Both the position numbers and the translations under genes were made by a program. Shown here piece by piece: positions 6,035-40,720 of a stretch of DNA of 45,151 bases. Origin of the DNA: a virus. The notes below the pieces were generated by a model. The model made no database searches. It was not told the DNA's origin and saw only the letters and a program-made list of their open reading frames with translations. Location of the stretch: positions 1 through 45,151 of IMG/VR virus record IMGVR_UViG_3300024520_000135. One strand, written 5' to 3'. Positions within the stretch are counted from its first letter, which is position 1. Every line of letters begins with the position of its first letter.

Positions 6035-6309
6035 TGACTGACATGAAGATAACAAATCTTGAATATAAAACCATAGAGCATCAATGCTCAAGGTGTAGTT
6101 TTATTACGTCTGAACCATACATTGAAGACATGGACGATAGGCTTGATAAAGAAGTTCTTAGGCAAGAAGTCAATCACTTGAGGAGGAAAGACAACAGCCA
6201 TGAAAACACGTTGAGACTCATCATGGATCGGTATAACAAACTCAAGGCGTATATGATTACTAGAGGGATATTCTTAAGCCCCGAAGACATAGAGGATATA
6301 GTCAAATGA
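6034..6309 (+). CDS. Hypothetical protein with CxxC and helical region
   Basis: A 91-aa protein. The start at 6034 is chosen over an in-frame ATG at 6010 because a strong GGAGGA ribosome-binding site ends 8-9 bp before it and because it overlaps the previous stop as ATGA. The N-terminus contains CSRC (HQCSRCSFIT). The rest is a charged helix or coiled coil (DKEVLRQEVNHLRRKD). Its TGA overlaps the start of the oxygenase-like gene. The function is not recognisable. A single CxxC would need a partner protein or dimerisation to bind zinc. Confidence 0.72.
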   Translation: MTDMKITNLEYKTIEHQCSRCSFITSEPYIEDMDDRLDKEVLRQEVNHLRRKDNSHENTLRLIMDRYNKLKAYMITRGIFLSPEDIEDIVK

Positions 6310-6863
6310 TAGTAGAAATATTTGATGACTTCTGCCCTGAGGCAGATTTAGAAAAGCGTATTGAGTACGCGAAGACAGCAGAGTTTAAGACTCATGAATT
6401 CAAAGGCGTTGAGTACGAACAGATCCACCCACTACCAAGTGATAGATTTGTCATGAAAGAAATGGAGTACATTTACGAAGGGCACTTCGAAGGTTTCCAT
6501 GTGTTGCGTAAGGGACATCACCCAACTGGGTGGATTCATGCTGACACTAACTGCGGTGGTATGGCTGGAGTCTTATACCTTACAGACCACGAAGAGTTAA
6601 CAGGTACAGCATTCTGGTCCCACGTCAAGTATGGACAGAGAGCTAACATCGAGAACGAAGAGCAAGCAGCTGAGATAAATGGAGACGCCAATGATCCATC
6701 TAAGTGGAGACTAGTTAAGATAGTCAAAGGTATGAAGAATAGAATGTTGGTCTACGACTCTCAACTATTTCATTCAGTCTGGCCGAGGGTTGGACCTGAG
6801 GATAGAGTTGTACAATGTTCTTTTTTAAACTTCAAGCCTTACGATGAAGACATTAACCCTTGA
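6306..6863 (+). CDS. 2OG-Fe(II) dioxygenase-like protein (DUF6445-like)
   Basis: A 185-aa protein with the iron and 2-oxoglutarate binding pattern of the double-stranded beta-helix dioxygenases. H78-x-D80 lies in GWIHADTN, followed by GGMAGVLYLT; the distal H156 is in LFHSVWP and R167 in EDRVVQCSF would bind the 2OG carboxylate. The overall pattern resembles the DUF6445/prolyl-hydroxylase-like proteins common in marine phages, whose substrates are mostly unknown. Its position between the polymerase and the resolvase suggests a substrate linked to DNA or to the replication machinery, but a host-protein target is equally possible. It overlaps the upstream gene by 4 bp, with GAGGAT before the ATG, and the resolvase gene by 20 bp. 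Confidence 0.82.
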   Translation: MIVEIFDDFCPEADLEKRIEYAKTAEFKTHEFKGVEYEQIHPLPSDRFVMKEMEYIYEGHFEGFHVLRKGHHPTGWIHADTNCGGMAGVLYLTDHEELTGTAFWSHVKYGQRANIENEEQAAEINGDANDPSKWRLVKIVKGMKNRMLVYDSQLFHSVWPRVGPEDRVVQCSFLNFKPYDEDINP

Positions 6864-35371: not shown

Positions 35372-35400
35372 TTTATTAGTTTTGTACATGTTATTGTCAA
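35372..35400 (-). promoter_or_regulatory. Putative leftward promoter for 103-aa/193-aa unit
   Basis: Minus-strand TTGACA (35395-35400), 17-bp spacer, AATAAA (35372-35377; four of six consensus positions). It lies about 85 bp before the start of the 103-aa gene. The -35 is again within a CATTGACA repeat element. Confidence 0.42.
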
Positions 35401-35492
35401 TGTCTTTGATAATACTCTGAACGGAGGGGTCAAAATGTGATGGGGCGCAATGGAGCGGACTTTTCAGGTTGGGGTGTACCCCCCTCCGCCGT

Positions 35493-35514
35493 AGTATGTC
35501 GCAACATACTTTTT
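35493..35514 (+). terminator. Weak hairpin with T-tract
   Basis: Arms AGTATGT (35493-35499) and ACATACT (35504-35510) pair perfectly around CGCA and are followed by TTTT. On the plus strand this has the form of a weak intrinsic terminator, yet no plus-strand gene lies upstream. It may instead be an origin or regulatory hairpin. Confidence 0.4.
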
Positions 35515-35587
35515 GATCCACTTGCCGGCCAGATTAAACACATTGACTCACTCGTTTACATGTCAATGGATCACGTAAATGTCTGGC

Positions 35588-35800
35588 TTATTTTGCCGTC
35601 AATGTGCCCAATTTGAAAAAGTTTACAACTATTATATACAAATATGTGTAACTTGTTAGTGTGTCAGCCTTTCGAGTAGTGTTCCGACCCTTGAGGTCAG
35701 TTATACTGTCATCTGATACCCTATAAACACTATATACACTACTATCTATAGCTACTAAAGACCCCCCTACATATACCCTCTTAGCAAAAGTAGTGCTCAT
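35588..35800 (-). CDS. Possible small leftward protein
   Basis: A 70-aa frame beginning MSTTFAKRVYVGGSLVAIDS. A GGGGGTGAG ribosome-binding-like sequence ends about 6-7 bp before the ATG, and two TTGACA promoter-like sites lie upstream (35937 and 35972). The frame overlaps several repeat elements, has no recognisable domain and ends in a low-complexity hydrophobic tail (YTYLYIIVVNFF). It could be a chance frame in the control region. Confidence 0.3.
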   Translation of the reverse strand: MSTTFAKRVYVGGSLVAIDSSVYSVYRVSDDSITDLKGRNTTRKADTLTSYTYLYIIVVNFFKLGTLTAK

Positions 35801-35832
35801 GGGTGCTCACCCCCTTGAGCCATTTCCCACAA

Positions 35833-35852
35833 AGCCTTATTTCACTAAGGCT
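35833..35852. other. Perfect hairpin in control region
   Basis: Arms AGCCTTA (35833-35839) and TAAGGCT (35846-35852) pair perfectly around a six-base loop, directly beside the tandem GCACACTACTC repeats. No T-tract follows on either strand, so it is not a standard terminator. A replication or regulatory structure is possible. Confidence 0.5.
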
Positions 35853-35909
35853 CGTTGCCTGCACACTACTCGTGCACACTACTCAGCACTTTATTGACTA
35901 CATCATTTA

Positions 35910-35972
35910 CATATAGTCATAACTCGTCAAATGTCAAAACAGACATATATGTCAATGCAATCATTATGTCAA
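35910..35972 (-). promoter_or_regulatory. Two overlapping-type leftward promoter-like sites
   Basis: On the minus strand TTGACA (35967-35972) with a 17-bp spacer leads to TATATG (35944-35949), and a second TTGACA (35932-35937) with a 16-bp spacer leads to TATATG (35910-35915). Both -10 boxes match four of six consensus positions. They would drive leftward transcription through the control region toward the 70-aa frame and the 103-aa gene. Confidence 0.4.
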
Positions 35973-36044
35973 TTTATCCGAACCTGTTATAAAACCCGTA
36001 CACACTACTCTCAACCCCTCAAAAAATTATTTTGATTATTTACA

Positions 36045-36072
36045 TTGACAGCAACATTGACAAATATATAAT
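36045..36072 (+). promoter_or_regulatory. Strong sigma70-type early promoter
   Basis: TTGACA (36045-36050), 16-bp spacer, TATAAT (36067-36072): both boxes match the consensus exactly. A second TTGACA (36057-36062) lies in the spacer as part of a direct CATTGACA repeat. Transcription should start near 36079, giving a leader of about 24 bases before the ATG at 36103. This is the main promoter for the rightward early block. Confidence 0.8.
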
Positions 36073-36102: not shown

Positions 36103-37926
36103 ATGGACACGACAAACTTTACCAACCGGCAACACATTTTACGACACTCCTTATGGAAGATATTAGACGAACTCAATATTTCGAGTCGTCACGGAGATGA
36201 CGTACAACCTAAGGTTGACGCTGATACCGATATAATTTACCCTTATATATCAGAGACAGACCCTTGCAGACTAGCCTACCTATCAGATAAAAAGGTTCCG
36301 TCTGAAATACTAGTCTATGATAACAATCAAGCCCCTGTGATGAGCACCGCCCTAGGGAGAATACAAAGATTACAGGATATGAAGAGTCAAGGCACATTTG
36401 GCAAGGTTGGCAAGACTTTAAACCGATGCTTTGAGAATATACCACAAGGCCTAATAGAAGAAATCGCTAACAGATTAGGGGCTAGAAGCAATAACAGTGA
36501 GTTCGTACCAGTCGATGAAAGACTACCAAGTGAGATATATTCTATAAGAACAGACTCAAACGCTGGCACTTTATGCAGTTCTTGCATGCGTCCTGAAAGC
36601 GACGGAGAAAAAGAAAGGTTCGAAGTTTATGACAATGATGCTTACGGACTACATTGTGAGTTTACGGAGATTAACGGAGAGGAGAGGCTAAAAGGCAGAG
36701 CGTTAATCTGGCAAGTAGACTTTCATGGCGACGAGCGTTTTTTCGTAGACCGTATTTATGGAACAGAATATTTTAAAAAGTCAGTAATTCAGTATTGGGA
36801 AGCAAAAAACGCTCTAATTCGTATAGGTGATGGCTACGAGTGGCAGGGTTTTATCGACCCAATTACAGGCGGTACAAGTTACTGCATATCGGTCAAAAGT
36901 TCTTGTGATTATGAGCACGCGCCATATATGGACAGCTTTAAAGACTACAATGGATCTGAATTAATAACTGCTGAAAGTGGCCCATTAACTCAATGTGATG
37001 GCACAGGCTTTGGCAGAAGTCATTGTGAACATTGCGGAGATGATGTTGAGCAAGACGACATGGTCTACGTCGAATCAGTTGGCAACTGTTGTGATGACTG
37101 CGCCGTATGGACAGAAGATGAGGCACAATTAAGAGAAAACTGTGTAAGAATCGAAGGGAATTGGTATTGCGAAGCCAGCGAGTCAATAGTGTATAGTGGT
37201 CATGATGAAGAACACATTTTAGTAGATAATGCTATTTATATTGACTCTATTAACTCGTATGTAAGACTTGAAAATTCTACATTTTGCGAGCATTCACAAA
37301 CTGATGAATTATCATCCAACTGTGTACAACTTGAAAATGGCGACTGGCTTGAAGAAGACCATGAAGACTTAGTTAAAATAGGTGAAAGCTATTACATAGA
37401 AGGCATTGAAGATGAAGAGATTGAAGAAGCAAGAATTGAAGACAGGGCAAGACAATGCCGGTTGAGATCAAAACATATACTAAGAAATGTTGAAGCTAGA
37501 CAGAAAGATGCTTACTTAAAAAGACACAAAAGTGATCTAGAGTTCTACACACCAAGCAAGAATCCGACTTACGCATATTTTAAAAGCCTCACTTTTGATG
37601 AGAGACTTTCTATTAATAGAGACTACCATAACGCTGGACCACTTTTTCAAAAAGCGATTAAAGCTAAACTACTAACTAGGGCAATGTTATTTGATAAATC
37701 TAGATTCGCGGTTTACACTCCACCTGTACTAAGCAAAGAAGCTATATCTAGTTTGAGCTCCTTCGTAAATTCACTCATGGAAGGCCAAAGGCATAACGCC
37801 AGAATAACTAACTCAGACGTACTAGCCCAATGGCGTAGCCCTCAACTAACTAGCTCAGACGTACTAGGCCAAAGACACGACGATGTTTTAGACTCCACCG
37901 CATACGCAATAAGCCAACAGTTTTAA
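36103..37926 (+). CDS. Zinc-ribbon early protein of unknown function (607 aa)
   Basis: The first gene behind the strongest promoter. Near residue 160 a CSSCMRPES motif starts a domain with GLHCEFTEINGEERLKGRALIW and FVDRIYGTEYF. The RALIW...DRIY arrangement recurs in phage proteins of unknown function. A four-cysteine ribbon follows (C308, C311, C330, C333). After it, residues 340-440 hold imperfect short modules of the NCVRIEGNWYCE / NCVQLENGDWLEE type, and a Glu-rich helical stretch leads to a C-terminal tail with a twice-repeated SDVL(A/G)Q motif. There is no Shine-Dalgarno and the leader is short. It is most likely an immediate-early protein acting on host machinery, but no enzymatic motif is visible. 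Confidence 0.75.
   Translation: MDTTNFTNRQHILRHSLWKILDELNISSRHGDDVQPKVDADTDIIYPYISETDPCRLAYLSDKKVPSEILVYDNNQAPVMSTALGRIQRLQDMKSQGTFGKVGKTLNRCFENIPQGLIEEIANRLGARSNNSEFVPVDERLPSEIYSIRTDSNAGTLCSSCMRPESDGEKERFEVYDNDAYGLHCEFTEINGEERLKGRALIWQVDFHGDERFFVDRIYGTEYFKKSVIQYWEAKNALIRIGDGYEWQGFIDPITGGTSYCISVKSSCDYEHAPYMDSFKDYNGSELITAESGPLTQCDGTGFGRSHCEHCGDDVEQDDMVYVESVGNCCDDCAVWTEDEAQLRENCVRIEGNWYCEASESIVYSGHDEEHILVDNAIYIDSINSYVRLENSTFCEHSQTDELSSNCVQLENGDWLEEDHEDLVKIGESYYIEGIEDEEIEEARIEDRARQCRLRSKHILRNVEARQKDAYLKRHKSDLEFYTPSKNPTYAYFKSLTFDERLSINRDYHNAGPLFQKAIKAKLLTRAMLFDKSRFAVYTPPVLSKEAISSLSSFVNSLMEGQRHNARITNSDVLAQWRSPQLTSSDVLGQRHDDVLDSTAYAISQQF
37807..37872 (+). repeat. 24-bp imperfect direct repeat in coding region
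   Basis: ACTAACTCAGACGTACTAGC and following bases (37807-37830) recur at 37849-37872 with two changes, encoding the repeated SDVLAQ / SDVLGQ peptide in the tail of the 607-aa protein. Confidence 0.7.
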
Positions 37927-37930
37927 ATCA

Positions 37931-37961
37931 TTGAGCCAATGGTGAAATTCCGTTGGCTCAA
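37931..37961 (+). promoter_or_regulatory. 12-bp RNA hairpin between first two early genes
   Basis: Arms TTGAGCCAATGG (37931-37942) and CCGTTGGCTCAA (37950-37961) pair along their full length (one G-T wobble) around a 7-base loop, starting 4 bp after the first gene's stop. The nearest T-run lies about 15 bp downstream (37977-37981), too far for a standard terminator. An mRNA-processing or stabilising element, or an attenuator setting the first gene's level apart from the rest, would fit. Confidence 0.65.
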
Positions 37962-38001: not shown

Positions 38002-38904
38002 ATGAGATATTTACATAAAAAGATATGGTATGAAGACCAAGAAGGCGTACGAGCTTTCTTTATTAAAAAACTGGTAGAGTCAGGTCGAGATTTTGACGTC
38101 ATCGATGGTAATATATTGTGCCTTGACTTGGTTGGCGTTCCGGCATTGGTGGCTCACATGGACACAGTCAATGACCGAGCGATGAAAAATAAAATGGTCT
38201 ACGACAAGAAGACAGACAGACTAACAAGAAAAAACGCTATATTAGGAGCTGACGACAAAGCCGGAGTCCAAATTATTCATGACTTATTCGACCAATGTAA
38301 TTTCATCTTGACAAGAGATGAAGAGGTAGGTTTATTAGGAGCTCGTAGCCTTGCAAGTATGACATACGTAGCAGATAAACTAGAAGAAATAGAGGTGCCT
38401 TGTTTACTAGAGTTTGATCGTATGGGCAATTCTGATATAGTTGGCCCTTGGAACGAATATTGTTGTGAAGAATTGGCCGATGACATAAGCGCAATTTCAG
38501 GCGGTGCATATAACCCTGAAATGGGAGTGTGCACAGATCTAGACGAACTCAAGGACTTAGGAGTCGAAGGCGTTAATTTATCGGTTGGCTATTACCAACA
38601 GCACACCAAAAACGAATACATGGTCATGGCTGAGTTTGAAAATGCTTGTAAGTTAGCTGAGTTGCTTTTAGTTGAATTGGCCGATAGAGATTACTCGTTT
38701 CAAACGGCACCACCTAAGAAAGACGATTATAGCTGGGGTCATTCAGGTTCATTCTATAGCGACAAGGAAATAGAGAATTGCTATTATTGCGGTGTAGAAC
38801 TCGAAGGCGAAGAGAAAGACACAGGAACATGCTGGGGATGTGAAACATGGCACAAAGACACAATCAAAGAAGCAAAAACAATTAACGTAAAGGCGGTAAA
38901 ATAA
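38002..38904 (+). CDS. M20/M28/M42-like metallopeptidase with C-terminal zinc ribbon
   Basis: A 300-aa protein from the ATG at 38002, which has AAGG at 37991. An in-frame ATG at 37939 would sit inside the hairpin, without conserved sequence. All co-catalytic zinc peptidase positions can be read: H52-x-D54 in VAHMDTV, the bridging D84/D85 in LGADDKAG, E107/E108 in TRDEEVG, D139 in LEFDRMGNSD and H201 in YYQQHTKNEY. The order and GADDKAG spelling resemble peptidase T and M42 aminopeptidases. The length is short for an M20 enzyme with dimerisation domain, so it is more like an M28 core. A zinc ribbon follows (C260, C263, C277, C280). It is probably a soluble cytoplasmic aminopeptidase made early, acting on host or phage peptides; the substrate is unknown. 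Confidence 0.87.
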   Translation: MRYLHKKIWYEDQEGVRAFFIKKLVESGRDFDVIDGNILCLDLVGVPALVAHMDTVNDRAMKNKMVYDKKTDRLTRKNAILGADDKAGVQIIHDLFDQCNFILTRDEEVGLLGARSLASMTYVADKLEEIEVPCLLEFDRMGNSDIVGPWNEYCCEELADDISAISGGAYNPEMGVCTDLDELKDLGVEGVNLSVGYYQQHTKNEYMVMAEFENACKLAELLLVELADRDYSFQTAPPKKDDYSWGHSGSFYSDKEIENCYYCGVELEGEEKDTGTCWGCETWHKDTIKEAKTINVKAVK

Positions 38905-40081: not shown

Positions 40082-40404
40082 TGGATATACCAGAATTTGA
40101 TAAGTTTATTAAAAAGGTAGTCAACGAGACTAACCGAGACGCTTGTGATTCTATGAGAAAGGGAGTAGCTAATCTCATCGACGAAGTTAAGAAGCGACAC
40201 ATGGATAAAATGGCTAAGTGTGATCCAGACAGCCAGCACGGCATGGCCAGCGCAGTAATGAATAGTATTGTTATGTCGTGCCTAGATATGGTCAAAGAAA
40301 ACCTAGTTAATGTTAATGTATTCGTAGCCACAGATGAGGCAGAGAAAGAATTTTACCAAACTATGACAGAGGGCATGCACAATGACAGCAGTTCGCCACA
40401 ATAG
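40081..40404 (+). CDS. Hypothetical helical protein
   Basis: A 107-aa, mostly helical protein (DKFIKKVVNETNRDACDSMR, ANLIDEVKKRHMDKMAKC, NSIVMSCLDMVKENLVN). It is translated by TAATG coupling with a GAGGA ribosome-binding site in the preceding gene and overlaps the nucleotide hydrolase-like gene by 23 bp. No family or catalytic motif is recognised. The overlap suggests co-expression with the DUF5664 protein. Confidence 0.62.
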   Translation: MDIPEFDKFIKKVVNETNRDACDSMRKGVANLIDEVKKRHMDKMAKCDPDSQHGMASAVMNSIVMSCLDMVKENLVNVNVFVATDEAEKEFYQTMTEGMHNDSSSPQ

Positions 40405-40720
40405 CAACAAGCCCGACCTTCTGTTATGGCTTGACCAGATGCCCAACGCATTGGCCGAAGTCAACCGAGCTAAAGAGTTTGGGTCTAAGAAGTATGACGA
40501 CCCAGAGAAAGGCATTGACGGCAACACCAATTGGGCTGACTCAATCGGTACTATTGGACATCTAGATTTTCAAGATGGGTGTCGTTCAGCGGTATTCAGG
40601 CACCTAATGAAGATAGCTTGGCAAGGCCATAGAGACACAACTCAAAACAGTATCCAACACATGGCCTTTGTGGCATTGAACGCTCTAATGTGGCTTGAAT
40701 ACGAATTAGCAGAGGAATAG
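40382..40720 (+). CDS. DUF5664 / MazG-like nucleotide diphosphohydrolase
   Basis: A 112-aa protein of the DUF5664 type, small all-alpha phage enzymes described as dATP/dGTP diphosphohydrolases. The signature is present: an N-terminal NKPDLLLWLDQMPNALAEV helix, FGSKKYDDPEKG, an NW pair (NTNWADS), FRHLMKIAWQG, and HMAFVALNALMWLEYEL near the end. The acidic and histidine residues of the MazG-like EExxE-type metal site are partly visible. It would adjust cellular dNTP or modified-nucleotide pools during phage replication. The ATG follows GAGGG and lies inside the preceding gene. Confidence 0.8.
   Translation: MTAVRHNSNKPDLLLWLDQMPNALAEVNRAKEFGSKKYDDPEKGIDGNTNWADSIGTIGHLDFQDGCRSAVFRHLMKIAWQGHRDTTQNSIQHMAFVALNALMWLEYELAEE

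Follow-up and report, generated by a model that had tools for sequence, protein, structure and literature searches.

A predicted lidless metallopeptidase is encoded second in a conserved gene pair of phages and plasmids

Introduction

The label "putative peptidase" recurs in phages of Klebsiella, Vibrio and Pectobacterium, where hundreds of genomes carry it with no function attached, and the family behind it is known by annotation only, as in the case of KP34 gp11 (PMC4411677). What such an enzyme does for a phage is the question raised by a plus-strand gene (38002-38904) in an IMG/VR virus record without a host, here analysed over its 45,151 nucleotides and referred to below as the window. 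Neither megablast nor single-protein scans found any close relatives of the window phage. A sequence-only reading had described the gene product as a complete co-catalytic zinc peptidase that is made early and fused to a zinc ribbon. Following up this description leads to a partner gene, which turns a lone annotation into a testable system, since the peptidase belongs to a two-gene module whose other member is conserved and enzyme-like.

The peptidase gene and its predicted active site

The open reading frame at 38002-38904 runs for 300 codons without an internal stop. An alternative in-frame start at 37939 would give a longer product, but the alignment of relatives and a ribosome-binding-like sequence, AAGGCAG, favour initiation at 38002. 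By sequence and structural model the 300-residue product is a lidless clan-MH metallopeptidase of the PepT/M28/M42-like kind. The HxD, D, EE, D and H residues typical of M20, M28 and M42 enzymes, on which the sequence-only reading was built, are indeed all in place (H52, D54, D84, D85, E107, E108, D139 and H201), and all except D85 are kept in 48 of 48 aligned relatives (37/37 rows of alignment A4 and 11/11 of A1). Thus no homologue without the metal ligands was encountered among these 48 rows. The 37-sequence alignment A4 contains six further invariant residues (R140, D179, N192, S194, Y197 and E205). Since D85 is replaced by cysteine in several relatives while D84 is invariant, D84 is likely to be the bridging ligand.

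The stretch from H52 to H201 (38155-38604, plus strand) is too short to accommodate the lid domain of M20 enzymes. The same holds for the relatives, in which D139 and H201 lie 58-72 residues apart in 37 out of 37 cases, so that the lid is absent throughout.

Fold and family placement

The PHROG 4191 "peptidase" profile matches residues 35-248 of the window protein, which correspond to the catalytic domain, with an E-value of 1.5e-32, and a profile based on the alignment retrieves the PepT protein of B. cereus at 5e-28. Together with the ligand set present in all rows of both alignments, these values place the peptidase match beyond chance. Curated family models respond more weakly: the best Pfam match, M28 (PF04389), reaches 17.4 bits and falls under its gathering cut-off of 21.3, the NCBIfam PepT-like model (TIGR01883) gives 47.5 bits against a curated minimum of 274, and the match to Pfam M42 is also below the curated cut-off.

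An AlphaFold2 model has pLDDT values that mostly exceed 90 as far as residue 230, approximately, and drop to less than 50 in the tail. Used as a Foldseek query, it finds B. cereus PepT (3gb0) with an E-value of 1e-10, and VIA-align gives Z scores of 25.2 for 2qyv (PepD), 24.3 for 3rza and 24.1 for 3gb0. Comparison with M28, M42 and peptidase T folds, which had been proposed as a check, thus yields a catalytic domain that matches PepT and PepD at Z 24-25; the alignment to PepT extends over the catalytic domain only. The clan-MH catalytic fold was recovered, and the di-zinc pocket proposed earlier survives this comparison. We predict that the window protein is a co-catalytic clan-MH metallohydrolase without a lid domain, which by its sequence is nearest to PepT and yet is lidless as in M28.

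The C-terminal ribbon

Behind the catalytic domain, two CxxC pairs at ribbon spacing (C260/C263 and C277/C280) form a putative zinc ribbon of the type CxxC-x13-CxxC (residues 260-280; 38779-38841, plus strand). It lies in the tail of low pLDDT, so that its folding is not predicted with confidence. Similar CxxC...CxxC tails occur in 10 out of 32 representatives of peptidase clusters. The fusion noticed in the earlier reading is therefore real as far as the two motifs are concerned, but it does not define the family; judged from these sequences, the ribbon tail appears to be a recurrent but optional addition to the peptidase. We also considered whether ribbons shuffle between the peptidase and its partner as the sign of a complex. 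This idea was abandoned, as a ribbon on one protein does not exclude a ribbon on the other (Fisher p=0.66 and 0.58).

Genome setting

Minus-strand genes, among them those for terminase, portal and tail proteins, occupy the window from 7.3 to 35.8 kb. Plus-strand genes lie to the right of 36.1 kb, up to the end of the window, and between 0 and 7.3 kb; this arm encodes a primase-polymerase/VapE helicase, another helicase, SSB, an exonuclease and DNA polymerase A. It is opened by a putative sigma-70 promoter, TTGACA-16-TATAAT (36045-36072, plus strand), located about 30 nt upstream of the first gene and identified by its match to the consensus. A 12/12 match is found nowhere else in the window, every other candidate reaching at most 10/12. 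The first gene behind it (36103-37926, plus strand) encodes an unannotated 607-residue protein that we name SCM after a conserved S-C-M motif, and the peptidase gene follows directly as the second, just as the initial reading had it.

From this position, early expression of the peptidase is likely. The claim of an early location can be carried over to PPWS1, AltoGao/KP34, VP93, Pasto and Indie; its scope is that of the podoviruses examined and not of all relatives. No description of the expression timing of the SCM-peptidase pair was found in the literature searched.

The gap between the two genes contains a predicted intercistronic RNA hairpin with a 12-bp stem (37931-37961, plus strand); the 86-nt stretch analysed folds as a whole at -20 kcal/mol (z -2.8 compared with shuffled sequences). 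The hairpin is not directly followed by a run of T residues. It could serve to tune the ratio of SCM to peptidase product.

Several other features of the window deserve mention. Many copies of ATTGACA/TGTCAAT in direct and inverted orientation lie at 35394-36062, among them two ACATTGACA in tandem where the consensus promoter is located, together with three CACACTACTC repeats in the intergenic region between the divergent early and late genes; these are possible regulator sites or an origin. A small protein encoded at 40382-40720 has a dATP/dGTP diphosphohydrolase N-terminal domain (PF18909), and its PHROG relatives bear endolysin or RNA polymerase-inhibitor labels. The replication arm has at its far end (6306-6863) a gene for a DUF6445/2OG-Fe(II) oxygenase-like protein.

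The SCM partner protein

The window SCM protein consists of an N-terminal region, a weakly GNAT-like core, a zinc ribbon, acidic repeats and a lineage-specific C-terminus. The window protein and those of the named phages have in common the motif order S-C-M ... GRA ... RxY ... PYxD ... CxxC/CxxC, represented in the window by S160-C161-M162, R199, R217, Y219, P274-Y275-x-D277 and the ribbon cysteines C308/C311/C330/C333. Out of 48 family members, 41-48 keep S160, C161, M162, R199, R217, Y219, D277 and the four ribbon cysteines. A family profile made without the window sequence retrieves the 36103-37926 product with an E-value of 1e-18 and an HHalign probability of 98.8%, which identifies it, at the level of sequence, as a true SCM homologue. 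The family is strongly acidic, with a median of about -9 charges per 100 residues; the window protein has a net charge of -42, and one depositor labelled an SCM protein "putative DNA mimic protein".

The fold assignment rests on a family member (L048) that is 25% identical to the window SCM protein and for which a deep-alignment model reached a mean pLDDT of 93.4. For its residues 112-216, approximately, the best 50 solved-structure rows of a VIA comparison are all of the GNAT/Fem type. The top VIA score, Z 7.8 over 96 residues, lies below the reliable level (Z<8), as does the best Foldseek match, FemX, whose E-value of 0.059 exceeds 0.05 (probability 0.94). The pyrophosphate loop [RQ]xxGx[GA] that binds acetyl-CoA is seen in 0 of 48 rows, which might fit a donor that is altered, whether in the Fem-like manner or another. 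Cysteine, arginine, tyrosine and aspartate residues are conserved and look like an active site. Searches of SCM against Pfam and, by sequence, against solved structures returned no significant match, and neither SCM nor the peptidase matched any of the PADLOC defence models.

Coupling of the two genes

At 80 viral loci found by means of the peptidase alignment, an SCM gene adjoins the peptidase in most cases. Conversely, when 80 viral loci were collected by SCM alone, the peptidase lay directly downstream in 79 of the 79 that could be tested, i.e., where the contig continues; this sample is weighted towards one broad clade and includes contigs that the peptidase search had also found. The commonest arrangement at the SCM-found loci is a 4-nt overlap of the two genes. 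Across 29 peptidase clusters (<50% identity), an SCM-profile protein lies no more than 3 kb away in 16, and within 200 bp in 14 of these; a strict count, from which weak and hand-added assignments are removed, leaves 11-12 of the 29. SCM is mostly upstream in this set, while it is downstream in three clusters and on the opposite strand in two. Conservation is confined to the immediate neighbours of the peptidase gene, the fraction of homologous pairs being 0.020 at position -1 and 0.015 at +1 as against 0.000-0.003 at positions ±2 to ±4. Moreover, the pairwise identities of SCM proteins track those of the peptidases with r=0.94 over 134 one-to-one loci, as expected for co-inherited genes, and in a phage collection matches to peptidase and SCM come in equal numbers (42/42 in Vibrio, 10/10 in Escherichia and 4/4 in Shigella phages). 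None of the ORFs at the loci searched encodes a fused SCM-peptidase protein.

About half of the 29 peptidase clusters have no SCM-profile neighbour, and none was detected near the peptidases of P087, Thermus phage P74-26 and Bacillus phage FADO. At nine loci (L062, L065, L072, L079, L082, L019, L022, L023 and L010), divergent peptidases are adjoined by other large proteins that bear an SCH, SCQ or SCM motif as well as several ribbons and are candidate homologues. The SCH/SCQ proteins are kept as possible SCM relatives and not counted as proven ones, given HHalign probabilities of only 6-52%.

By these comparisons the peptidase gene comes second in a conserved module of two genes that is headed by SCM; the module is well supported, whereas its mechanism is inferred. 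Since the upstream gene is a conserved partner, the peptidase should not be read alone, and work on it without SCM may fail.

Distribution in phages and plasmids

The pair is present in phages of Klebsiella, Vibrio, Pectobacterium, Acinetobacter, Cellulophaga and rhizobia. The gene that precedes the peptidase is large and unannotated in PPWS1 (579 aa), AltoGao (563 aa), Pasto (516 aa) and BDU-MI-1 (483 aa), and the pair is likewise present in KP34, VP93, C171 and Indie, the last an Acinetobacter phage that looked like a stray and in fact has the SCM-peptidase pair. In phi38:1 the two genes are found in reverse order. The peptidase of Pseudomonas phage C171 (L178, 3863-4851) is split into two overlapping ORFs, by a frameshift in the deposited sequence or because the gene is broken.

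Three SCM and two peptidase genes are clustered in a 735-kb phage (LR756501; L013, 1-5990), and the same numbers occur in a row on the Methylobacterium indicum plasmid pVL1_2 (L181, 4667-13912), which suggests local amplification and diversification of the module. On the Limnohabitans plasmid pTEGF4, the pair is near genes for a methylase, a toxin-antitoxin system and a relaxase, and on the conjugative Sphingopyxis plasmid pMC4 it is near ParB, toprim, Abi, HEPN and SOS-response-associated genes. We do not claim the pMC4 locus as a leading region, as mobF is about 27 kb away. At the sensitivity of the scan, 84,980 cellular genomes are almost free of SCM; the one metagenome-assembled contig on which it was seen also has a peptidase gene.

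The module is therefore mobile, being present in unrelated phage lineages and on plasmids, with either gene order. Sharing between phages and plasmids would make a role in virion assembly, lysis or host killing unlikely, and establishment or the countering of host functions likelier.

Possible functions

SCM and the peptidase probably do one early job jointly in the host cell. They may constitute an enzyme pair for early establishment or counter-defence, in which SCM recognises or (amino)acylates a target and the peptidase hydrolyses an amide, a proposal that we consider reasonable although we hold it with somewhat less than even confidence. Both proteins would act on a single substrate early after DNA entry. 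SCM, with its GNAT/Fem-like core, its cysteine and Arg/Tyr/Asp residues, its zinc ribbon and its acidic repeats, would recognise the target and most likely acylate or aminoacylate an amine on it, or otherwise present it. The peptidase, free of the lid by which M20 enzymes shape their substrate pocket, would then cleave the corresponding amide or an N-terminal peptide bond, the two proteins acting as writer and eraser or in sequential steps. Pairs of acyltransferases and amidohydrolases are known in metabolism, e.g., ArgA and ArgE, and the peptidase clan holds deacylases besides peptidases; for these reasons our best guess is a pair that acts on one amide-linked group, or an SCM protein that presents substrates to a lidless peptidase. 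Early establishment or counter-defence is the most probable purpose because plasmids carry the pair too. The module would thus point to early takeover or counter-defence, for which plasmids offer an independent experimental model. Spelled out in full, podoviruses, huge phages and conjugative plasmids would share a Cys-dependent GNAT-like acyl or aminoacyl transferase and a lidless metallopeptidase which, soon after the DNA has entered, jointly set and remove an amide modification, or handle it in successive steps, on a target of host or phage origin, in order to counter defence or take over the host; in this detail the proposal is speculative and on the doubtful side.

The roles of the two proteins could also be distributed differently. 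SCM might itself be an effector or inhibitor, such as an acidic protein that is DNA-mimic-like or binds to the host, and the peptidase would trim it to mature, activate or remove it. One-to-one linkage and tandem SCM paralogues beside peptidases would suit an enzyme with its substrates, and the strong acidity of the family and the DNA mimic label agree with such a role of SCM, but a mere substrate has no need for the enzyme-like S, C, M, R, R, Y and D of the SCM core, and precise maturation cuts would be unusual for clan-MH members, which are typically exopeptidases or deacylases; we judge this unlikely. Alternatively, the effector might be the peptidase, directed against a peptide-based host defence or a host regulator, while SCM only targets or presents the substrate. 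The active site that is complete by sequence, the early place behind the best promoter and the plasmid loci, including that on the conjugative plasmid with its Abi, HEPN and SOS-response-associated neighbours, are all compatible with such an arrangement. Nevertheless, SCM appears to be more than a tether and neither protein is homologous to the PADLOC models, so that we also give this version a low probability.

Explanations that dispense with the partner fare less well. A free-standing PepT-like enzyme for the recycling of peptides into amino acids in the infected cell, its neighbour being irrelevant, would agree with the tripeptidases and dipeptidases that are its nearest solved relatives and with those phage relatives beside which no SCM was detected. 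It is quite unlikely in view of the 79/79 coupling from the SCM side, the pairing kept on plasmids and the missing lid domain. Many phage proteases serve virion maturation or lysis. Such a role is highly improbable here, as the gene belongs to the early/replication arm and stands outside the late minus-strand structural genes; carriage by plasmids speaks against virion processing as well and somewhat favours counter-defence or establishment.

Comparison with known systems

In the literature searched, we found neither the coupling nor the SCM family described, nor any mention of the GNAT-like core or of the pair on plasmids. A precedent for a phage GNAT protein that modifies host machinery, leading to proteolysis, is the Rac acetyltransferase of phiKMV (PMC7552054). 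Unlike SCM, Rac is Gp28, adjoins structural genes and acts via host proteases (PMC7552054), and a link between the two was dropped because gene and position differ. The Fem/GNAT transferases FemX, MprF and RimI are possible relatives of the SCM core (residues 112-216, approximately, of the L048 model), with which they would share the order of strands and helices, whereas the weak scores, the absence of the CoA-binding loop and the extra ribbon and acidic repeats set SCM apart.

On the side of the peptidase, M28 aminopeptidases share the single lidless catalytic domain and provide the best Pfam match (PF04389), but the score stays under the cut-off and the nearest solved folds are those of M20 and M42. 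Peptidase T and PepT-like enzymes (M20B; 3gb0 of B. cereus, 3rza of S. aureus and 1fno of Salmonella) are close in predicted fold (Z 23-24, 2.2-2.5 A over 217-221 residues) and in the common signature HMDTV, LGADDKAG, EE and VGY..HT.NE. The window peptidase differs from them by its lack of a lid/dimerisation domain, an invariant arginine after the metal-ligand aspartate and a conserved partner gene. The closest counterparts are the PHROG 4191 proteins (KP34 gp11, PPWS1, VP93 gp7), which agree with the window protein in profile and active-site residues, even though identity to the named phage matches listed is below 35% and the window protein adds a C-terminal ribbon. KP34 gp10 and gp11 are given as a conserved "hypothetical protein" and a "putative peptidase" (PMC4411677), and PPWS1, KP34-type phages and VP93 have the same partner gene ahead of the peptidase as the window.
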